DNA from: Lachnospiraceae bacterium
GTDB taxonomy: Bacteria; Bacillota; Clostridia; Lachnospirales; Lachnospiraceae
NCBI GenBank assembly: GCA_030524525.1
Contig: JAUNGI010000023.1
Coordinates: forward strand, 1 to 38,369
DNA length: 38,369 nt
Direction: 5' to 3'
The notes beneath the pieces were generated by a model, which had not been told where the DNA came from, ran no database searches, and saw only the letters and a list, made by a program, of their open reading frames with translations. Positions 5,662 through 38,369 of the stretch are shown one piece after another. The stretch's first letter is position 1, and the number at the start of each line of letters is the position of its first letter. The position numbers were made by a program, and so were the translations under genes.

Positions 5662-7431
5662 CTATTCCACGTCCTGCAGGGCATCGTACCCTTCCTCGCC
5701 GGTTCTTACCTTCACAACGTTCTCCACGTCGTAAACGAAGATCTTACCGTCGCCGATATGACCGGTGTAAAGCACCTTCTTCGCAACCTCGATCACACGG
5801 GCAACCGGAACCGCGCTGACAACGATATCGACCTGAATCTTCGGAAGCAGCGTCGGCTCCACGGCAACGCCTCGGTAGAACTCCTGCTTACCCTTCTGAA
5901 TGCCGCAGCCCATAACATGGGAGACGGTCATACCGGTAATGCCGATCGCCATCATCGCATCCTTCAGCGGTTCGAGCATCCGCTCGCGGCAGACGATCTC
6001 GATCTTTGTCATCTTCGGGCCCTCGCCCTCGGCAAACGAAGGGATCTTCTTCACAGGGATCGCTTCTGCAACAGGGGTTTCGCCGGTAACCGCAACAACC
6101 TCGGAACCGCCCACATATTTTTCAACGACCGGAACGAAATCGGCATAAGCCTGCGGAAGTCCATGCTCGGTCGCATCCAGACCGATGATCTCCTCCTCCT
6201 CGGAAGCCCGAAGACCGATCGTAGCTTTAATAATCAAAAAAGTAATGGTGATGGTGACTGCCGCCCATGCCGCAACGCTTGCGAAACCAAGGAGCTGCAT
6301 TCCCAGCTGCTCTACGCCGCCGCCATAAAACAGACCCTCGCCGCGGATCACACCGTTCGCAACTGCGGTCGCATAGCCCGGAGCCGTATCGGTGGCAAAG
6401 AGACCAACCGCAATCGTACCCCAGATACCGTTCAGACAGTGAACCGCTACCGCGCCCACCGGATCGTCCACGTGCAGCTTGTAATCCAGCAGCCATACGC
6501 CGAAAACAACGAGCAGACCGGCTACCGCGCCAATGATGAGGGAACCCGTCACGTCGGTAACGTCGCAGGAAGCGGTGATCGCCACAAGACCTGCCAGCGA
6601 AGCGTTCAGACACATCGTAACGTCCGGCTTGCCGTATTTGACCCATGTAAAGATCATACAAGCAACCGTTGCCACCGCCGGAGCAATGGTCGTGGTTACA
6701 AAGATCGAAGCCAGCTCGCTTACGTTCGTTGCCGCCGCTCCGTTAAAGCCGTACCAGCCGAGCCACAGGATGAACACACCCAGTGCGCCGATCGGAAGGT
6801 TATGTCCCGGAAAAGCGTTTACCTTTGTGACCTTTCCTTTTTCGTCTCTTACAAACTTACCGATACGGGGCCCGAGCAGCTTTGCGCCCACCAGCGCGGA
6901 AATACCGCCGACCATGTGGATCGCGCAGGAACCGGCATAATCATGAAAGCCAAGCTCTGCAAGCCAGCCGCCGCCCCAGATCCAGTGCGCCTCGATCGGA
7001 TAGATCAGCGCGGAAATAACGGCGGAATAAACGCAATACGAAAGGAACTTCGTCCGCTCTGCCATCGCGCCCGAAACGATCGTCGCGGTGGTCGCGCAGA
7101 AAACAAGGTTAAATACGAAACCGGACCAGTTGAAGCTTTCGTATTCGGTAAAAATCTCAATGCCCGGCTTTCCGATCAGTCCGACCAGATCCTCGCCCAG
7201 CAGAAGCCCGAAGCCGATCGCGATAAAAACCACGGTACCGATACAGAAATCCATCAGGTTTTTCATGATGATATTTCCTGCGTTCTTCGCCCGCGTGAAA
7301 CCGGTCTCCACCATTGCGAAGCCGGCCTGCATCCAGAATACCAGCGCCGCGCCGATCAAAAACCAGACCCCGAAGGTCACTTTGTTCGCCTCTTCCAAAA
7401 GACTGGCGTTCAGTTCCAAAAAGGGTAACAT
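5662..7431 (-). CDS. amt: ammonium channel fused to a PII regulatory domain (Amt-GlnB)
   Basis: A 589-residue fusion. Residues 1 to about 410 form an eleven-helix Amt/Rh channel with the twin-histidine pore signatures (HWIWGGG and VHCLNGIWG) and the usual EEEEIIGLD cytoplasmic tail. A linker of about 60 residues leads to a complete PII domain at 474-589, including the T-loop (GKQEFYRG) and the C-terminal GKIF / VRTGEEG ATP-binding signatures. In most bacteria PII (GlnK) is separate and plugs the channel when nitrogen is plentiful; here it is tethered. The T-loop keeps the Tyr46 equivalent but has Val where Tyr51, the uridylylation site in enterics, would be. The start at 7431 has AAAGGAG upstream; an extension to 7521 would translate the structured leader. 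No glnA, glnK or uridylyltransferase gene is nearby. Confidence 0.93.
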   Translation of the reverse strand: MLPFLELNASLLEEANKVTFGVWFLIGAALVFWMQAGFAMVETGFTRAKNAGNIIMKNLMDFCIGTVVFIAIGFGLLLGEDLVGLIGKPGIEIFTEYESFNWSGFVFNLVFCATTATIVSGAMAERTKFLSYCVYSAVISALIYPIEAHWIWGGGWLAELGFHDYAGSCAIHMVGGISALVGAKLLGPRIGKFVRDEKGKVTKVNAFPGHNLPIGALGVFILWLGWYGFNGAAATNVSELASIFVTTTIAPAVATVACMIFTWVKYGKPDVTMCLNASLAGLVAITASCDVTDVTGSLIIGAVAGLLVVFGVWLLDYKLHVDDPVGAVAVHCLNGIWGTIAVGLFATDTAPGYATAVANGVIRGEGLFYGGGVEQLGMQLLGFASVAAWAAVTITITFLIIKATIGLRASEEEEIIGLDATEHGLPQAYADFVPVVEKYVGGSEVVAVTGETPVAEAIPVKKIPSFAEGEGPKMTKIEIVCRERMLEPLKDAMMAIGITGMTVSHVMGCGIQKGKQEFYRGVAVEPTLLPKIQVDIVVSAVPVARVIEVAKKVLYTGHIGDGKIFVYDVENVVKVRTGEEGYDALQDVE

Positions 7432-7446
7432 AGAAAACTCCTTTCT

Positions 7447-7538
7447 ACCGTCTTTTGACGGTTCCGGTATCGGTACGGGAAACAAAAAAGCGTCTCCCCA
7501 GAATACAGTTTCTGTGAACACGCCATTGTGCCGATACC
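7447..7538 (-). promoter_or_regulatory. candidate structured leader RNA of amt-PII
   Basis: In the transcript, GGTATCGG (7531-7538) pairs with CCGATACC (7466-7473) and encloses two hairpins: ACAG-AAA-CTGT (7505-7515) and GGGAGAC...GTTTCCC (7477-7498). Next comes ACCGTC-AAAA-GACGGT (7447-7462), directly before the ribosome site AAAGGAG. The result is a three-way-junction-like fold with a hairpin next to the Shine-Dalgarno, which is riboswitch-like. I recognise no known class. Confidence 0.45.
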
Positions 7539-7590
7539 TATGATTTTTTCTACGAAGTATGGAGCAAAGAATGTGCCTCGCGCATCCTCA

Positions 7591-7920
7591 GCAGCATCTT
7601 CCTCTCCGCCGCTGTGCGATCCTCAGCGGAGCGTTTTTTGTTCGGAGGAAACGAAGTTTCCGATGAACTCAGAAGCTCGCTCTGCGAGATTCTCCGCCTG
7701 CGGCGGGCTGCCACGGCAGCATCTTCCTCTCCGCCGCTGTGCGATCCTCAGCGGAGCGTTTTTGTTCGGAGGAAACAAGGTTTCCGATGAACTTAGAAGC
7801 TGGCTCTGCGAGATTCTCCGCCTGCGGCGGGCTGCCTCAGCAGCATCTTCCTCTCCGCCGCTGTGCGATCCTCAGCGGAGCGTTTTTTGTTCGGAGGAAA
7901 CGAAGTTTCCGATGAACAAA
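7591..7920 (+). repeat. dispersed intergenic repeat, three tandem copies (B1-B3)
   Basis: Near-identical units start at 7591, 7716 and 7840 (period 125 and 124 bp); the third is cut short by a terminator. Each unit contains an inverted repeat CTCCGC...GCGGAG followed by CGTTTTTT, then GTTCGGAGGAAAC...GTTTCC GATGAAC, then CCGCCTGCGGCGG. The open frames across it are by-products of repetition. The unit belongs to the same family as copies A, C, D and E. Confidence 0.92.
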
Positions 7921-29842: not shown

Positions 29843-32419
29843 ATGGACGAACATGTATTTGATAAGATAGACGACGTCGATCTTCAAAAAATGATGGAGA
29901 AATCCTATATTGAATATGCGATGTCGGTTATTGCCGCGCGTGCGCTTCCCGACGTCAGAGACGGTCTGAAGCCGGTGCAGAGACGAATTCTGCATGCCAT
30001 GAACGAGCTGAACAACGGTCCGGACAAGCCGCATAGAAAATGCGCCCGTATCGTCGGCGATACCATGGGTAAATATCATCCGCACGGCGACAGCTCGATC
30101 TACGGCGCTTTGGTCAATCTGGCGCAGGAATGGAACACGCGTTACCCGCTTGTGGACGGTCACGGAAATTTCGGTTCCGTGGACGGCGACGGCGCCGCCG
30201 CCATGCGATATACCGAGGCGAGACTCAGCAAGATCTCGGTTGAGATGCTTGCCGATATCGGAAAGGACACGGTCGATTTTGTACCGAACTTTGACGATAC
30301 CGAGCGCGAGCCGGTGGTTCTGCCCTCGCGTTTTCCGAATCTGCTTGTAAACGGAACTTCGGGAATTGCAGTCGGCATGGCGACGAATATCCCGCCTCAC
30401 AATCTGCGCGAGGTGATCGGCGCGGTCGTTCGGATCATTGACAACCGACTGGAGGACCGGGATACTGCCATCGAGGAAATCCTGCAGATCATCAAGGGAC
30501 CGGATTTCCCCACCGGCGCGACGATCTTGGGTACGAGAGGAATTGAAGAAGCGTATCGCACGGGGCGCGGAAAGATCCGCGTGCGCGCCGTGACCGAGGT
30601 GGAGCCGATGGAGGGCGGAAAGAACCGCATCGTCGTAAAAGAGCTGCCTTATATGGTAAATAAGGCGCGGCTTGTGGAAAAGATCGCCGAGATGGTGCGC
30701 GACAAGAAGCTGGACGGCATCGTGGGTCTGCGCGACGAATCCGACCGGCAGGGAATGCGTGTCTGCATCGAGCTTCGGCGCGATATCAACCCGAACGTGA
30801 TGCTGAATCTGCTGTATAAGCACACGCAGATGCAGGATACGTTCGGCGTGATCATGCTGGCGCTCGTGAATAACGAGCCGAAGGTGCTTCCGCTGCCGGA
30901 TATGCTGCAGCACTATCTGCGGCATCAGGAGGAGGTCGTTACCCGGAGAACAAAGTACGATCTGAACAAGGCGGAGGAGCGGGCGCACATTATGGAGGCG
31001 CTGCTTCGCGCGCTCGATGTGATCGACGAGATCATCCGGATCATCCGGGCGTCCAAGTCCACGCCGGAGGCAAAGCTTGCGCTGATGGAGGCGTTTGCGT
31101 TCGACGACGTGCAGGCGCAGGCGATCGTCGATATGCGGCTTCGCCAGTTGACCGGCTTGGAAAGAGAAAAGCTTGAGGAGGAATACGCCGAGCTGATGGC
31201 GAAAATCAAGGAATATCGTGAGATCTTGGCGGACGAAAAGAAGCTTTTGCTTGTAATTCGAAAGGAGATCCAGCTGATCGGTGAAAAATACGGCGACGAC
31301 CGCCGTACCTCCATCGGCTTTGACGAATTTGATATGAACGCGGAGGATCTGATCCCGGACGATCCCACGATCATCGCCATGACCCGTCTGGGCTACATAA
31401 AGCGGATGAGCCCGGAGAATTTCCATACGCAGAACCGCGGCGGCAAGGGGATCAAGGCGATGCAGACCATCGAGGACGATTTCATTGAGAACATGTTCAT
31501 GACGACGAATCACCATCTGCTGCTGTTCTTTACGAGCCTTGGCAGGGTTTACCGCATGAAGGCGTATGAGATCCCGGAGGCGTCCAGAACCTCGCGCGGA
31601 ACGGTCATCGTCAATCTGCTGCAGCTTCAGCCCGACGAGAAGATCACGGCGATCATCGCCCTGAAAGAGATCGGGGACGAGCGCTATCTGATCATGGCGA
31701 CGAAAAACGGTCTGGTCAAGAAAACGAAGATGAAGGATTTCCGCAACATCCGAAAGACCGGTATTCAGGGCATCACGCTGCGGGAGGACGACGAGCTGAT
31801 CGGCGTGGGAGCCACCGACAATACGCAGGACGTGCTTCTGGTGACGAAGAACGGACAGTGTATCCGCTTTGGCGAACAGGACGTTCGGGCGACCGGACGC
31901 GGCTCGATGGGCGTTTTCGGCATTCGACTTTCGGAGAACGACGAGGTCGTTTCCATGCAGACGACCGGGGAGGGCGGCAATCTTCTGTTCCTCTCGGAAA
32001 ACGGTTACGGAAAGCAGACGGCGATCACGGAATTTCCGAAACAGCACCGGGGCGGCAAAGGCATTCGCTGCTACAAGATCGTGGAAAAAACCGGTAGTCT
32101 GATTGGCGCAAAGACCGTAACGGAAGAGAACGAAATCATTATCATTACAAACGAGGGCATTTTGATCCGGATCCCGGTCAGCGGCATCAGCGTGCTGGGA
32201 AGAAGCACTTCCGGCGTTCGCTGCATGAACGTTGATTCCGACAGCGAGATCAAGGTCGCAAGCTTTGCCAAGGTGATGGAAGCCGAACAGAAAGAGGCTT
32301 CGGAACTGCTCGCGGAAATGGAGCAGGCGATGAATGCCGAAAATAACGAGGTCGTTGAGGATTCCGAGGAAGCGCCGGAAGAAGGCGGGGAATTTGATGC
32401 GGAATCGGAAGAAAAATAG
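29843..32419 (+). CDS. gyrA: DNA gyrase subunit A
   Basis: The breakage-reunion subunit of gyrase. The 858 residues include the winged-helix/tower core with catalytic Tyr123 ([10 protein letters not shown]), and a C-terminal beta-pinwheel with the GyrA-box-like [10 protein letters not shown]. An acidic tail follows (last 30 residues, rich in Glu). In the quinolone-resistance region, [12 protein letters not shown] has Ser84 at the E. coli Ser83 position and Gly88 where E. coli has Asp87. AAGAGGTG precedes the ATG. It is followed by a strong terminator at 32444. Confidence 0.99.
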
Positions 32420-32549: not shown

Positions 32550-32653
32550 ACAAAGCATTTTTCTGGAAAGAAGTTAGTCTGTTTTACTATTTTTGATCTG
32601 AGCGCCAAAAAAGCGAAAAGTTTTACGCAAAAAGGAAAAACGTGCACAAATAC

Positions 32654-32682
32654 TTGACAGACTACAAATAAGGCTGTATATA
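32654..32682 (+). promoter_or_regulatory. promoter of secreted-protein/FtsX cassette 1
   Basis: Perfect TTGACA (32654-32659), 17-nt spacer, TATATA (32677-32682), about 40 nt before the ATG at 32721. Its layout and leader match those of cassette 2. Confidence 0.82.
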
Positions 32683-32720
32683 TAATATATTAGAATAAAT
32701 TCAAAAGAGGAATTTTCAAG

Positions 32721-33143
32721 ATGAAAGGAAAAAGAGTTCTGTTTGCGTCGCTTTTGCTGTTGGCTTGTACGTTTATGATCGGACTGGCTTTTGCCAAGGA
32801 GGATTATGATTTTGAGGTGGAATCAAAGAATGTGAAGGCGTCGGTATGGGGGCGGGTGTCGTATACGGATAATAGTTCCCCTTTGCCGTGGGTAGAGGAT
32901 GTTGTAGATTACAATATCCATCTGATTGGCAGTGATAGCGATCTGATTACGGTAGATAATCAGGCGTGTCTTTATATGGAGGCATACAAGGGAAAAACGT
33001 TTGTTGAATCAAAAGAAGTCTATGTTTGCGATCAGAGACTCAGCGTTAATAACAAAACATGGAAGTTTGCAGATAAGGCTACGGAATTACGCATTAAAAT
33101 TACTATTGACGAAACCGTAGAGAAGAAAACTTTGAGAGATTAG
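32721..33143 (+). CDS. secreted protein of unknown function, cassette 1
   Basis: A 140-residue protein with a signal peptide: Lys/Arg start, hydrophobic core 6-24 and a likely cleavage after Ala-Phe-Ala25. An LLAC sequence at 13-16 could be read as a lipobox, but the hydrophobic run continues beyond it, so ordinary secretion is more likely. The mature domain of about 115 residues appears beta-rich, with alternating polar and hydrophobic segments, two cysteines and no catalytic motif. It has a close paralogue at 35819-36244. The first 50 or so residues are nearly identical between the two, including VKASVWGRVSYTDN, while the C-terminal half differs strongly. AGAGGA precedes the ATG. The FtsX-like gene follows after 59 nt and is presumably the functional partner. 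I recognise no known family. Confidence 0.85.
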   Translation: MKGKRVLFASLLLLACTFMIGLAFAKEDYDFEVESKNVKASVWGRVSYTDNSSPLPWVEDVVDYNIHLIGSDSDLITVDNQACLYMEAYKGKTFVESKEVYVCDQRLSVNNKTWKFADKATELRIKITIDETVEKKTLRD

Positions 33144-33202
33144 TGACCAAACAATGTTCATACGAGTTTCTTATAATCTGCTTATGAAAGGGAAACTTCC
33201 TC

Positions 33203-35671
33203 ATGAAGAAATCTACACAATGTCAGATCGCGATTGATTTTTTGCTGTTAAAGCCCGGAAGATACGTGGGAAACCTCTTGATTTTAGCGCTATCTTTATT
33301 TTCGGTTGGAATAACACTGATTTTTTTGACTCAAACACACTATGTGCGTTTGGGGTTTCAGGAAGCGGTATCGGTTTCTCCAAAGCAGGTTGCGAGATGC
33401 TTTTTTCGTGATATTATAGACCAAGAAGAAACGACAAATGCAAAGAATGACGTTACTGCGATCGAGGAAATTTCTGCTATCGGTTATTTGGAGTGTGCCA
33501 GACTTGAATATGACTTCTTATGCCCGTATACGGAGCTGCAAAACGGACATGCAGTCTCAAATGTAAGCTTGGAGGATGAATGGGGGCGCTATGCCGCGCA
33601 ATTTCCGGAAATTTATCTCATGGGAAGAGATTTCTGGGAATATTTCGATCTCTCCTTGGCGGGGGGAGCCGAACCAAAGAAGGAGCGGGAAGGAAACATT
33701 ACCGAGCTTTATGTTGGCTATGAGCTGCGGAATGTTTATCCCGTTGGGAGCGAATTTGAACTTTTTAACTCAAAGGGGGAGATAACGGGTGTTTGTCGAA
33801 TTTCAGGTGTTCTGAACGCCGGCAGCAGGGTTATGGCTCCGGAGGCGGCTGTGGGAGAAGAAATCGGCGCATATAATACTGATTACATGGTTTTATGGAT
33901 TGAACATCCGGATACCTTCTTTGTCAATGGAGAATTCTTTGTAATTACCGATAGCCCGGAGGACATGAAAACCGTTCAGCGAAAGCTGATCGAGATTGGA
34001 GAAAAGTATCATGTAACTGCGATGGTCAATACGCTCGAAAACGTATTTGCGCAAAGCGAACGGGAGATCCATGCGGACTATGGGCAGATGCAGTATGCCG
34101 TTTTTCTGCTTGCCGTAACCGCCGTAATTTTGCTGTTGGTTTCACAGGTCATGGAGCAGATGGATTTTTCGGAGGTCTACGGCGTTTGGTACGCAAACGG
34201 CGCTTCCAAAAAGGATATGCGCAGAACGCTATTCTATCAGAATCTTCTGCGGTTAATCCCTGCCGAAATTTTTGCGGGAGCAGGAATGTACTATGTGGCG
34301 TGGTATATTTACCAGAAATATCAACAGGGATATCATCACCGTGTTGTTATGCAGCAGATTTTCTTCCACTGGATGCTGCCGGGAATTCTGCTCGCCGGTG
34401 TCTTGATCGTTGCGGCGGCGGTTCTTGTTCCGTTGTTTATCCTGAATCGAAGGAACGCCGTAGAGCTTCTAAACCGCCGCGCTTCGGAAGGAAGGACATG
34501 CCGCCGCTTTTCGAAAGTTGTGCGGGACGGGCGTATGTCGGGGCTGCTGATCTTGGAGATCCTTCTGGTGCTGCTGCTGTTTACCAATGCCGCGATGTAT
34601 TTCCATTCCTATCAATACGCCGGGGAGACGGTAACGCTGAACGGCAGCTACAAAAACCAGCAGACGCTTGGAATCGACGTGGATTGGCAGGCGAATATCG
34701 GCGAGGACGGCTGGACGCCGCAGATACAGGAAAGTACCATTGACGAGCTGCTGGAATTTTGCAGGAGCGTAAAGGACCTGCCGGTTTCCGTTATTCTGTA
34801 TCGAAATTGGATGATCTCCATGCCGCCGGAGTATGCGTCGACAGGGCTGCTTCTTACCGACAGCGAGCCGCCCCAGAGGCTGAGCGAGGGGAAATACGAG
34901 CCTGACCGGCAGGGCATTTATCTTTCCGAGGCGCTGGTACCGCTTTTGGAGACCGACGAAACGGGAGCGTACTTGGAAAGTTTTCACACGAGGTTTCCGC
35001 TGCTTGGAACGGTGGCTGCAAGGGGGCAGGAAACCGAGGATTCGATGTATGTATATTTTCAGACCTTGGAGGAGGCAACGCAGCGGGAAATCCTGACAGA
35101 AATGGTCCGGATGTGTATTGACGCCTCCTACTTTGAACCGCTTGCCTTGGTGGTCGGAAGCAACGACGCGGAGATCGGCGATACGGTGGAAGCCGTTCAG
35201 GCAGCGCTTTCGAGCAAGACGATGATCTCCTGCAAGGAGCTGGAGACGGAGGAGGCGATCGCTGCGATCTCGGGAAATCAGGACATTATGCAGGATCAAG
35301 CGTTGTTCCGGCTGCTGGTCATCGGTATTGTAATGTTTTTCTGCATGGTCAGCCTGCTTCAGGTGCTTTCACTTTGGATGGAACGGAAGCGGGAGGAGAT
35401 CACGATCCGCTGGGCGGTCGGAATGAAAAAGCGGCAGATCCTCGGCGCGCTGATGCAGGAAATGCTTTGCCTGATGGGGGTCTGCCTCCTGTTCGGCGGC
35501 TTCGTTGAGCTGGCGGTCTGCTGGGGCGTGAAGCGATACTCGTTCCTTGTTGCGGCGGGCTATCTGGCGGCGGCATCCGTCGGGACGTTCCTTGTGTTTT
35601 CGGCGCTTTTGGTTCACGTATTCCGCAAAAGCACCCGGAGCATGGAGCTGGCGGTTCTGCTGCGGGAGTAG
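33203..35671 (+). CDS. large FtsX/MacB-type membrane protein, cassette 1
   Basis: An 822-residue protein built as two FtsX-like halves. Helix 1 (about 22-42) precedes extracellular domain 1 (45-293), then helices 2-4 (about 297-317, 346-367, 391-413). Helix 5 (about 446-463) precedes extracellular domain 2 (464-697), then helices 6-8 (about 701-724, 752-772, 781-805). After helix 2 and helix 6 come the cytoplasmic segments VWYANGASKKDMR and EEITIRWAVGMKKRQI, which match the usual FtsX/MacB coupling region. Such permeases normally pair with a MacB/LolD-type ATPase, but none is in the window. Two-gene units of a small secreted protein and a large FtsX-like protein also occur in lactococcin-972-type bacteriocin loci, where the large protein is tied to immunity or export; the likeness here is in layout only. 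AAAGGG precedes the ATG. Confidence 0.88.
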   Translation: MKKSTQCQIAIDFLLLKPGRYVGNLLILALSLFSVGITLIFLTQTHYVRLGFQEAVSVSPKQVARCFFRDIIDQEETTNAKNDVTAIEEISAIGYLECARLEYDFLCPYTELQNGHAVSNVSLEDEWGRYAAQFPEIYLMGRDFWEYFDLSLAGGAEPKKEREGNITELYVGYELRNVYPVGSEFELFNSKGEITGVCRISGVLNAGSRVMAPEAAVGEEIGAYNTDYMVLWIEHPDTFFVNGEFFVITDSPEDMKTVQRKLIEIGEKYHVTAMVNTLENVFAQSEREIHADYGQMQYAVFLLAVTAVILLLVSQVMEQMDFSEVYGVWYANGASKKDMRRTLFYQNLLRLIPAEIFAGAGMYYVAWYIYQKYQQGYHHRVVMQQIFFHWMLPGILLAGVLIVAAAVLVPLFILNRRNAVELLNRRASEGRTCRRFSKVVRDGRMSGLLILEILLVLLLFTNAAMYFHSYQYAGETVTLNGSYKNQQTLGIDVDWQANIGEDGWTPQIQESTIDELLEFCRSVKDLPVSVILYRNWMISMPPEYASTGLLLTDSEPPQRLSEGKYEPDRQGIYLSEALVPLLETDETGAYLESFHTRFPLLGTVAARGQETEDSMYVYFQTLEEATQREILTEMVRMCIDASYFEPLALVVGSNDAEIGDTVEAVQAALSSKTMISCKELETEEAIAAISGNQDIMQDQALFRLLVIGIVMFFCMVSLLQVLSLWMERKREEITIRWAVGMKKRQILGALMQEMLCLMGVCLLFGGFVELAVCWGVKRYSFLVAAGYLAAASVGTFLVFSALLVHVFRKSTRSMELAVLLRE

Positions 35672-35751
35672 GGAATGTGAAATTTATTTTGGATTTCAGC
35701 GTCAAGAGCGCAGAAAATTTTGAAAGGGAAAGAGAAAATGAAGCGAAACAA

Positions 35752-35780
35752 TTGACATGTCAAAAATAATCATGTATATA
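35752..35780 (+). promoter_or_regulatory. promoter of secreted-protein/FtsX cassette 2
   Basis: TTGACA (35752-35757), 17-nt spacer, TATATA (35775-35780): the same hexamers and spacing as cassette 1, in a related but diverged flank. No terminator is seen after the first FtsX-like gene, so read-through is also possible. Confidence 0.82.
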
Positions 35781-35818
35781 TAGCATATGAAAATAAATTC
35801 AAAGGAGGAACTTTTAAG

Positions 35819-36244
35819 ATGAAAGGAAAAAGAGTTCTGTTTGCATCGCTTTTGCTGTTAGCTTGTACATTCATGATCGGACTTGCATTCGCCAAGGAGG
35901 ATTATGATTTTGATGTGGAGGCGAAGAATGTGAAGGCGTCGGTATGGGGGAGGGTATCGTATACGGATAACACATCTATTTTACCGGTGATAAAGGATGT
36001 TATTAATTACAATATTCATCTGATTGGGACGGATAAGGGGTTATTTACACAGCGCAATGCGGCTGAGTTGGAAATGAGTGCTTATAAGGGAAATGTAAAA
36101 GAAAAAACAAAAACAATACGAGTTTATAAAGGAGAAGATAATGTAACAAATGGAGATCCTTGGAAAGTTTCCAACAGTGTTACCGAACTAAGGGTGAAGA
36201 TTGAAATAGACGGAACCATAGTAACACGCAGATTAACGGATTAA
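35819..36244 (+). CDS. secreted protein of unknown function, cassette 2
   Basis: A 141-residue paralogue of the protein at 32721-33143. The 25-residue signal peptide is identical, and the mature N-terminus is nearly so (KEDYDFDVEAKNVKASVWG). From about residue 52 the two differ widely apart from short anchors (YNIHLIG, AYKG, TELR). This copy lacks the two mature cysteines of copy 1. AAAGGAGG precedes the ATG and is stronger than in copy 1. The partner membrane gene starts 36 nt downstream. Function unknown. Confidence 0.85.
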   Translation: MKGKRVLFASLLLLACTFMIGLAFAKEDYDFDVEAKNVKASVWGRVSYTDNTSILPVIKDVINYNIHLIGTDKGLFTQRNAAELEMSAYKGNVKEKTKTIRVYKGEDNVTNGDPWKVSNSVTELRVKIEIDGTIVTRRLTD

Positions 36245-36280
36245 CAAAGTATAGTTTGCATAGAAAGGGACGCGCCTTTT

Positions 36281-38369
36281 ATGAAAACTTCCACACAATG
36301 CGGGATCGCACTTGATTTTATCCTGTTAAAGCCCGAAAAATATATCGGAAATTTGCTCATATTGGCATTTACGCTGGTGTCCGTTGGGTTGATATTTCTT
36401 TTAACCCTTCCAAATCACTATGTACGGCTGGGGGTTCATGAGGCTGTTTCGGTTCCGCCAAAGCAGATAGCAAGATGTTACTATTGGGGCGACGTTGCTT
36501 ATGAGGATCGGGACAGCGCCAGTGATGAGATTATTGCAATCGAGGAAATTTCTGCCATTGGCTGGCTTGATTACGGCAGAATAGAGTATGAGTTTTTACG
36601 TCCGTACACGGAAAAGCAAAACGGTCATACCATTTCAGGATACAGCGAACAGGACGAATGGAGTCGTTATAATGCGCAATTTCCGGAAGTCTACAATTTG
36701 GGAAGAAATTTCTGGGAATATTTTTCTCTCTCTTTATTGGAAGGGACGCCGCCGAAGAAAGAACGAGAAGGAAATCTTACCGAGCTTTATGTGGGATATG
36801 AACTGCGGGATGTATACCCGGTCGGAAGTGAATTTGAAATTCAGGATTCAGAAGGAGAGGTTTGTGAGGTTTATCGGATTTCCGGCATTCTGCAAGCTGG
36901 CGGCATGGTTCTGGCTCCGGAAGCAGGAGAGACAGAGGCGGAGGTCGGTGCGTTTGTTACAGACTATATGCTTCTGAGAATAGAATACTCTGATACGGTT
37001 ACGGTAAGCGGAGAATTTTTTTGCATTACCGATACATTAGAGGATATGAAGACGGTTCAAGGGAAGTTGAATGAGATCGGTGAAAAGTATCATGTAACTT
37101 CGGTGGTCAATACACTTGAAAACGTATTTGCGAAAAGCGAACGTCAGATACATAAGGATTATGCGCAGATGCAGTATGCTGCTCTTCTGCTTGCCGTGAC
37201 CGCCGTGATTCTGCTGTTGGTTTCACAGGTCATGGAGCAGATGGATTTTTCGGAGGTCTACGGCGTTTGGTATGCAAACGGCGCTTCCAAAAAAGATATG
37301 CGGAAGGTTCTTATCTGCCAAAACCTCCTGCGGTTAATTCCTGCCGAAATTTTTGCAGGGGCGGGCTTATATTACGTCTTCCAGCTTCTTTATCGGGGAT
37401 ATCATCGTCGTTTTGTCATGCGGCAGATTTTCTTCCGCTGGATGCTGCCGGGAATTCTGCTCGCCGGTGTCTTGATCGTTGCGGCTGCGGTTCTTGTTCC
37501 GCTGTTTATCCTCAATCGAAGAAACGCCGTAGAGCTTCTGAACCGACGTGTTTCGGAGGGAAAGACACGCCGCAGCTTTTCGAAATTGGTGCGGGACGGA
37601 CGCATGTCGGGGCTGCTGATCTTGGAGATCCTTCTGGTTCTGCTGTTGTTTTCCAATGCCGCGATGTATTTTCATTCTTATCAATACGCCGGGGAGACGG
37701 TAACGCTGAACGGCAGCTACAAAAACCAGCAGACGCTTGGAATCGACGTGGATTGGCAGGCGAATATCGGCGAGGACGGCTGGACGCCGCAGATACAGGA
37801 AAGTACCATTGACGAGCTGCTGGAATTTTGCAGGAGCGTAAAGGACCTGCCGGTTTCCGTTATTCTGTATCGAAATTGGATGATCTCCATGCCGCCGGAG
37901 TATGCGTCGACAGGGCTGCTTCTTACCGACAGCGAGCCGCCCCAGAGGCTGAGCGAGGGGAAATACGAGCCTGACCGGCAGGGCATTTATCTTTCCGAGG
38001 CGCTGGTACCGCTTTTGGAGACCGACGAAACGGGAGCGTACTTGGAAAGTTTTCACACGAGGTTTCCGCTGCTTGGTACGGTGGCTGCAAGGGGGCAGGA
38101 AACCGAGGATTCGCTGTATGTGTATTTTCAAACCTTGGAGGAGGCAACGCAGCGGGAAATCCTGACAGAAATGATCCGCATGTGTATTGACGCCTCCTAC
38201 TTTGAACCGCTCGCCTTGGTGGTCGGAAGCAACGACGCGGAGATCGGCGACACGGTGGAAGCCGTTCAGGCAGCGCTTTCGGGCAAGACGATGATCTCCT
38301 GCAAGGAGCTGGAAACGGAGGAGGCGATCGCTGCGATCTCGGGAAATCAGGACATTATGCAGGATCAAG
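36281..38369 (+). CDS. large FtsX/MacB-type membrane protein, cassette 2 (cut by the window edge)
   Basis: The reading frame opens at ATG 36281 (AAAGGG upstream) and stays open to the window end; 696 codons are visible. It corresponds to residues 1 to about 699 of the cassette 1 protein, so helices 1-5 and both extracellular domains are present while the last three helices lie off the edge. The N-terminal half (helix 1 and extracellular domain 1) has clearly diverged from copy 1. From helix 2 on similarity rises, and a block of about 398 nt in extracellular domain 2 is identical. No frameshift or stop was found at the places checked. Confidence 0.85.
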   Translation, partial: MKTSTQCGIALDFILLKPEKYIGNLLILAFTLVSVGLIFLLTLPNHYVRLGVHEAVSVPPKQIARCYYWGDVAYEDRDSASDEIIAIEEISAIGWLDYGRIEYEFLRPYTEKQNGHTISGYSEQDEWSRYNAQFPEVYNLGRNFWEYFSLSLLEGTPPKKEREGNLTELYVGYELRDVYPVGSEFEIQDSEGEVCEVYRISGILQAGGMVLAPEAGETEAEVGAFVTDYMLLRIEYSDTVTVSGEFFCITDTLEDMKTVQGKLNEIGEKYHVTSVVNTLENVFAKSERQIHKDYAQMQYAALLLAVTAVILLLVSQVMEQMDFSEVYGVWYANGASKKDMRKVLICQNLLRLIPAEIFAGAGLYYVFQLLYRGYHRRFVMRQIFFRWMLPGILLAGVLIVAAAVLVPLFILNRRNAVELLNRRVSEGKTRRSFSKLVRDGRMSGLLILEILLVLLLFSNAAMYFHSYQYAGETVTLNGSYKNQQTLGIDVDWQANIGEDGWTPQIQESTIDELLEFCRSVKDLPVSVILYRNWMISMPPEYASTGLLLTDSEPPQRLSEGKYEPDRQGIYLSEALVPLLETDETGAYLESFHTRFPLLGTVAARGQETEDSLYVYFQTLEEATQREILTEMIRMCIDASYFEPLALVVGSNDAEIGDTVEAVQAALSGKTMISCKELETEEAIAAISGNQDIMQDQ

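Follow-up and report, generated by a model that had tools for sequence, protein, structure and literature searches.

The 38,369-nucleotide stretch of Lachnospiraceae DNA analysed here (the window) forms the end of contig C52 in a 62-contig genome of 2.65 Mb. It closes with a tandem array of two-gene units, each pairing a small exported protein (A) with a large membrane protein that fuses two FtsX-type permeases (B). We give an even chance to the reading that these units form an array in which each Sec-secreted, antibacterial-type protein has a cognate FtsX permease for self-protection and all share one ATP-binding cassette (ABC) ATPase. Two units lie on the forward strand just downstream of gyrA. 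The first comprises a promoter-like site (32654–32682), A1 (32721–33143, 140 residues, with a signal peptide) and B1 (33203–35671, 822 residues); the second comprises a promoter-like site (35752–35780), A2 (35819–36244, 141 residues) and B2 (36281–38369), which is truncated by the contig end. Contig C1 of the same genome opens within the end of a B gene, beyond which lie a third unit (A3, C1:199–627, 142 residues; B3, C1:675–3134, 819 residues) and then the ABC ATPase (C1:3230–3910, 226 residues). An earlier note on this DNA had described the tandem two-gene unit with its equal promoter spacing and had guessed that the array might run on to the right and reach an ATPase, both of which proved correct; its statement that the system has no ATPase was wrong, as the right edge of the window is a contig break within the repeat. 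The break falls within sequence that is near-identical between copies 1 and 3, and the gap between C52 and C1, positioned on B1, is ~320 bases provided that B2 and the C1 tail belong to a single gene. The array comprises at least three A–B units, and extra copies may lie between the contigs.

The three copies share their promoter geometry. Read directly from the sequence, TTGACA begins 67 bases upstream of the A start codon and lies 17 bases from TATATA in all three; a consensus promoter scan, whose rule demands a T at position 6, did not report the TTGACA–TATATA site. The −35 elements of units 2 and 3 sit in a perfect 12-base palindrome, TTGACATGTCAA (window 35752–35763; C1/L008:132–143), which unit 1 lacks and which is a possible operator.

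Comparison of the copies revealed a mosaic. DNA identity is 89–97% across the start and signal-peptide region (32707–32856) and drops to 41–84% over 32857–34122, save for a stretch of 93–97% identity common to copies 1 and 3 near 33526–33750. This variable cassette (32857–34122, boundaries approximate) holds most of mature A1, the intergenic stretch and the first extracellular domain (ECD1) of B1. Downstream of 34122 most steps of the comparison are 88–100% identical, with copy 1 dipping to 55–80% at 34198–34347 and copy 3 departing at 34948–35322 (76–91%; 79–91% versus copy 1), and the second half of B1 forms a constant chassis (34498–35671). The longest exact tracts shared between copies are 398, 335 and 317 bases; B1 is identical to copy 2 over 34610–35007 and to copy 3 over 34592–34926 and 35375–35616. 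Over the A body and ECD1 synonymous divergence (dS) is 1.0–2.4 or saturated, compared with 0.20–0.51 in B residues 286–430 and 0.08–0.24 in residues 431–695, while protein identity is 44–51% in the A body, 64–73% in ECD1, 86–93% in B residues 286–430 and 91–98% beyond. The ratio of nonsynonymous to synonymous divergence (dN/dS) is 0.07–0.30 wherever computable, which, together with the three open copies (B2 being truncated by the contig end), argues that the array is real and beyond chance. Judging from these patterns in the sequence, recombination is the probable cause of the uneven divergence.

Base composition changes within B. The G+C content at third codon positions (GC3) is 37–45% in the A genes, 41–46% in the first 285 codons of B, 65–69% in the rest of B, 70% in the ATPase gene and 72% in gyrA, giving a step of 22–27 points inside B in all three copies. 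Among 15 long open reading frames (ORFs) of the window and C1, a step of more than 20 points was found in the three B genes and in one C1 ORF (L008:4262–6160) that is apparently over-extended. In relatives the halves of B are two separate genes, p1 and p2, and the p1-N minus p2 difference in GC3 across 20 such split relatives averaged −1.7 (standard deviation 3.4, lowest −10.1), versus −28 in B1. A and ECD1 together look like a diverged, AT-rich cassette set on a host-like chassis. A mosaic of this kind could also come from misjoined repeats, given an assembly of 62 contigs with breaks inside the repeat itself; against this stand three open frames, two in C52 and one in C1, that carry an equal composition step at about the same place, and we consider an assembly artefact very improbable indeed.

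The A proteins probably leave the cell by the Sec pathway, as indicated by their signal peptide with a cleavage motif. By inspection, cleavage of A1 would fall after residue 25, between AFA and KE, and no convincing lipobox was seen. A2 is 64% identical to A1, and across a 21-row A alignment the family is hypervariable, with 11–23% identity to A1 in 18 of the 20 other rows. The earlier note had called A beta-rich, a description that gains slight backing from mean Chou–Fasman strand propensity, a weak measure (1.01–1.03 in mature A versus 0.99 in GyrA and the ATPase). It had also named a clear match of A to a well-studied family as grounds for abandoning its view. No such match appeared: the A proteins of the window gave nothing above cut-off in Pfam, NCBIfam or PADLOC (best sub-threshold E values 0.033–0.12; the PADLOC input on the A side was A1 and the A protein of locus L061). 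Across 21 A-like proteins, each NCBIfam or Pfam match occurred in a single member only, and none was to a bacteriocin family (best E 2.5e-4). Searches of PDB sequences with A1 and with an A profile returned nothing beyond weak matches and alignments of 18 residues to PPR proteins, in which no stretch reached significance by itself. Besides the genome itself, an A1 search of 299 genomes of the family matched 10 others, none with an E value better than 0.0026 and none convincing; its sensitivity is low, as it missed the A protein of genome G070.

B1 contains two FtsX stretches (PF02687, E 1.3e-13), in agreement with the double-FtsX protein of 822 residues described before. Hydropathy analysis gave seven peaks in B1 and eight in B3, which makes the eight helices proposed earlier plausible, with two long loops between peaks. 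The p1 proteins of relatives align to the first half of B1, and the match in G070 spans B1 residues 1–764 over two genes. Among the genomes with matches (9 of 299 at E 1e-10 and 26 of 397 at E 1e-15, the genome itself counted in both), no other was listed with an intact fused B frame. The ATPase matches ABC_tran and has a Walker A motif, GASGSGKS, and a signature, ISGGE; PADLOC matched it to generic ATPases only. Its best NCBIfam match is TIGR03608, a 'putative bacteriocin export ABC transporter', at 216.4 bits, under the cut-off of 254.85. From its position it would serve all three B proteins. As a side observation, GCTCCGCGGGGATCGCACTGCGGCGGAG is present twice downstream of the ATPase (C1 (L008):3970–4180) and is possibly a dispersed repeat.

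With an FtsX-type domain, a large extracellular domain and an ATPase as putative partner, the system fits the type VII (MacB/LolCDE-like) class of ABC transporters. It resembles MacB, LolCDE and the darobactin exporter DarBCD in its FtsX domains and ATPase type, and the p1 profile matches the MacB structures 5nik and 5gko. Unlike those systems, the permeases are separate from the ATPase and are paired with a hypervariable exported protein; no MacA/TolC-type partner was noticed beside the window array, where no profile search was aimed at one. FtsX folds also occur in envelope maintenance of the FtsEX kind, in which the ABC complex would relay ATP hydrolysis to A as an extracellular partner controlling a wall enzyme. 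The ATPase does score 196 bits against FtsE, yet this is below the equivalog cut-off of 264.85; A has no hydrolase match in Pfam or NCBIfam, and the patchy distribution described below and the hypervariability ill suit a core cell-division role. On these grounds plain FtsEX was rejected, and we give the FtsEX-like alternative in general little weight.

The set of a small exported protein, two FtsX permeases and an ATPase recurs as an operon in Lachnospiraceae-type Clostridia, as in locus L021 (exported protein, p1 of 420 residues, p2 of 374 residues, ATPase). The sample of relatives consisted of 39 regions around p1-profile matches (G092:C399 omitted) and 17 named loci found with an alignment search, mostly from Lachnospiraceae or other Clostridia, several on identical contigs. 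A signal-bearing ORF of 80–180 residues lay at most 200 bases upstream in 22 of 39 permease-pair operons versus 9 of 98 control ORFs (odds ratio 12.8, p 1.6e-8), so that the proposed partnership of a small exported protein with a dedicated FtsX protein holds up in relatives. The 39 operons, drawn from 43 loci, were those with an upstream stretch of 600 bases or more, and the controls were ORFs of at least 250 residues from the same loci, of unverified gene status; the loci are partly non-independent (L083 and L084 belong to one genome, L141 and L142 to one genus). One of the nine control matches is the A gene of L090. At E 1e-15 the p1 profile matched 26 of 397 genomes of the family, a patchy distribution, and in a class-wide draw it matched 5 of 291 genomes at E 1e-20, the genome itself being counted both times; of the four others in the latter set, an A-like gene lies upstream in L143 and L144 and not in L141 and L142. 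A search of the genome-contig collection with the window B protein alone found no relative. Nor did the alignment that gave the 17 named loci when it was run on viral contigs, which leaves a phage origin unsupported; a phage-defence system was also considered and rejected.

Permease operons also occur where A is broken or missing. Manual reading sorted the 17 operons without an upstream match. The A-like gene is interrupted by stops in two (L060:2016–2414 and L083:3454–3834), with open permease frames downstream and, in L060, an open ATPase frame too (the L083 contig ends). In L090 the A gene is ~1 kb upstream, and in the second unit of L072 an A-like ORF has no recognised signal. The remaining 13 of 39 have no recognisable A, yet L087 retains a 63-residue remnant-like ORF and L082 and L094 hold other partial upstream ORFs. 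Routine separation of the two genes in relatives, which the earlier note had offered as a point on which it could fail, did not appear: no A was found away from FtsX permeases, though the sole A-only search is insensitive.

These operons bear on the alternative that B and the ATPase form a machine dedicated to releasing or exporting A, extracting it from the membrane after Sec export as LolCDE or MacB would, with A as an effector, signal or surface protein. The FtsX/MacB/LolD-type parts and the A–permease pairing suit such a machine. An exporter dedicated to one cargo sits oddly with operons in which no A is recognised (13 of 39) or A is broken (2 of 39); such operons would fit protection better, as with scbBC in pneumococci, where scbBC occurs without scbA in 157 of 571 genomes according to the available text of PMC11796350. 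Moreover, A should need no further release, given its signal peptide with a cleavage motif and no convincing lipobox by inspection. Co-variation is equally compatible with cargo recognition: similarity among A proteins tracks that of the extracellular domain of p1 (rho 0.27, p 0.001, 24 loci, the window represented by copy 1 only) but not that of the p2 domain (rho 0.09, p 0.10, 24 loci) or of the ATPase (rho 0.10, p 0.15, 20 loci, window excluded). Overall we judge dedicated export unlikely.

In a second alternative A is an exported signal and B with the ATPase its sensor, in the manner of BceAB. FtsX-type transporters can sense extracellular ligands, and a scan of 61 records, duplicates among them, found LytTR DNA-binding regulators in six (L061, L068, L090, L093, L094, L095), three of the six with a receiver domain above cut-off. 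The window itself yielded no LytTR regulator (kinases were not searched by profile). BceAB senses peptides by means of a ten-helix permease with one large extracellular domain, next to a two-component system, whereas B has 7–8 hydropathy peaks and two long loops. These peaks and loops speak against BceAB itself, a reading we set aside, and sensing or signalling at large appears distinctly unlikely.

Several further observations concern the relatives' loci and the surroundings of the array. Tandem permease pairs occur in L072 (G009:C95) and L093 (G131:C45); L072 has one ATPase per unit, unlike the window array with its single ATPase. No tandem array of the kind in the window appeared in titles and abstract openings of the open-access literature, a scope that leaves subscription papers mostly uncovered. 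A second family of membrane-anchored or lipoprotein-like proteins of ~140–170 residues lies beside the permeases or downstream of the ATPase in some relatives (L077:5962–6387; L080:2017–2478; L088:6694–7197 and 7279–7782; L092:6358–6810; L141:6149–6568; L142:3948–4367; L143:2967–3443), and a profile built from six of these also strongly matches L142 and the second L088 copy. Such a protein is possibly an immunity accessory; none was seen in the window array. Upstream of the array lie gyrB and gyrA (29843–32419, TIGR01063 match). A genome of the same genus has no B match at E 1e-10, and its gyrA is followed by a tRNA and then the contig end. Operons of relatives, L056/L065 (G341) and L057/L069 (G212), adjoin apparent gyrB- and rpoB-type genes recognised by eye, and the gyrA neighbour of the window array is comparable with these.

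We also compared the array with lactococcin 972 (Lcn972) loci, whose layout the earlier note had invoked. Such loci (TIGR01653/PF09683, TIGR01654/PF07242 and TIGR03608) likewise encode a small signal-peptide protein, a long multi-spanning FtsX-like protein and a LolD-like ATPase, and they occur in the same bacterial family; the window ATPase is nearest to TIGR03608. Antibacterial action through the cell wall (lipid II) is a further mark of Lcn972 systems. The gene order is the same, the difference being three A–B pairs before one ATPase. A control locus from the family, L114, is a genuine Lcn972 locus with an exported protein, a 719-residue membrane protein and an ATPase, and it passes all three NCBIfam models narrowly (TIGR01653, 32.4 versus 32.1; TIGR01654, 192.7 versus 189.35; TIGR03608, 260.5 versus 254.85) as well as the Pfam cut-offs for PF09683 (32.8 versus 22) and PF07242. 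In contrast, A1, A2, A3 and 18 further A rows have no PF09683 or TIGR01653 match, B1 and B2 have no TIGR01654 or PF07242 match, and the ATPase falls short of TIGR03608. The genome itself has no TIGR01653 match at 0.01 and no TIGR01654 match at 1e-5, and only 1 of 12 p1 relatives matches TIGR01654, at 4.6e-5. Profile–profile comparison with TIGR01654-type proteins by hhalign gave a probability of 0.5 for the B profile and of 24 for the p1 profile, over 102 columns of the FtsX region. The architecture is common to Lcn972 loci and the window array, and the likeness drawn in the earlier note stands for the layout, while membership of the family by sequence does not. Besides the signal-peptide-only similarity of A, the window differs in its MacB-like double-FtsX B protein, which is not of the TIGR01654 type, in its three effector/permease pairs per ATPase and, in relatives, in two separate permease genes.

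The NCBIfam cut-offs are strict: the Lcn972-type protein of L117 misses TIGR01653 at 29.5 though it passes PF09683, and its partial TIGR01654-type protein scores 74.1 bits, under the cut-off. Locus L130 has a TIGR01654-type protein (154.9 bits) and a small protein without a family match. TIGR01653 matched 7 of 250 genomes of the family, one above cut-off, and a PF09683 scan of 246 genomes of the order was uninformative, with the controls unmatched as well. Mediterrocin of Mediterraneibacter gnavus, also of the Lachnospiraceae, is an 89-residue secreted Lcn972-type bacteriocin with 18% identity to Lcn972, according to the accessible part of PMC12345188. This shows the extent of drift in such proteins, so that common ancestry of A and Lcn972 may still hold. 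In two other genomes of the family (L150:1468–1809 and L151:1498–1839) a 114-residue protein with a sub-threshold TIGR01653 match precedes a 149-residue anchored protein and then a weakly TIGR01654-matching protein; 114 residues is also the length of the mediterrocin precursor in that same text (PMC12345188), a likeness in length.

Export, sensing and immunity are inseparable here, and among them we favour immunity. By analogy, A would act against other bacteria and B would confer immunity. The streptococcin B locus scbABC of Streptococcus pneumoniae, as far as the available text describes it, is similar in having genes for a bacteriocin, a membrane protein and an ATPase and in genomes that keep BC without A; it differs in its Lcn972-type bacteriocin and its place in the competence regulon. 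The same text describes the individual roles of the membrane protein and the ATPase in Lcn972-type loci as experimentally unverified (PMC11796350). Lactococcus plasmids carrying the Lcn972 cluster (lcn972, orf2, orf3) raised the minimum inhibitory concentration from 12.5 to 800–1600 AU/ml, according to the accessible part of PMC4055356, which shows that the cluster protects but not which gene is responsible.

A number of results weigh against an antibacterial array with cognate immunity. Lawns of the scbBC-carrying strain D39 are still inhibited by streptococcin B producers (PMC11796350), so that permeases kept without A are no proof of an immunity that works. The dN/dS values of A (0.08–0.30) indicate purifying rather than diversifying selection. 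A tracks p1 only weakly, and the correlation of p1 with p2 is just as strong (rho 0.27). A is below the ATPase in GC3 in 18 of 20 relatives, and its AT-richness alone consequently proves little. The signal-peptide rule is crude: the 22 matches include the LytTR regulator of L095 and five membrane-anchored proteins (L080, L088, L089, L091, L092), although in L080, L088 and L092 an exported protein lies further upstream of the anchored one. The window ATPase is under the TIGR03608 cut-off with LolD, DarD and MacB close behind, and TIGR03608 is the best match for one of four ATPases of relatives, DarD for two and MacB for one. Between A and Lcn972 proteins hhalign aligned the signal peptide alone, with a probability of 19, in a comparison of limited sensitivity (8 rows versus 3 on the Lcn972 side). 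To these is added the lack of a LytTR regulator in the profile scan of the window.

If the system is nevertheless one of secreted antibacterial proteins with cognate immunity, A would be exported via Sec and released as a protein of ~115 residues, with the envelope of competing cells as its site of action. B, with two MacB/LolC-type FtsX permeases in one chain, and the ATPase would assemble into an ABC complex of type VII (mechanotransmission), in which ECD1 would recognise the cognate A and clear the producer's own membrane or target of it. Several effectors would then share a single chassis and a single motor, the second half of B being kept similar while A and ECD1 diverged. A broader form of this proposal, which we put forward tentatively and with some doubt, is that such arrays represent a hypervariable class, so far unrecognised, of antibacterial proteins that Clostridia secrete via Sec. 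Each A may be co-inherited with the ECD1 of the FtsX-type permease that would give immunity to it, tandem copies would be homogenised over the remainder of the permease, one ATPase would power all of them and new effector/immunity specificities could be swapped in by recombination.

The three paralogues constitute a natural experiment at the level of domains, in which effector and ECD1 differ and the remaining permease is 86–98% identical in protein. Which domain gives self-protection its specificity becomes directly testable, and the array points to small exported proteins of Clostridia that are missed by current family models.

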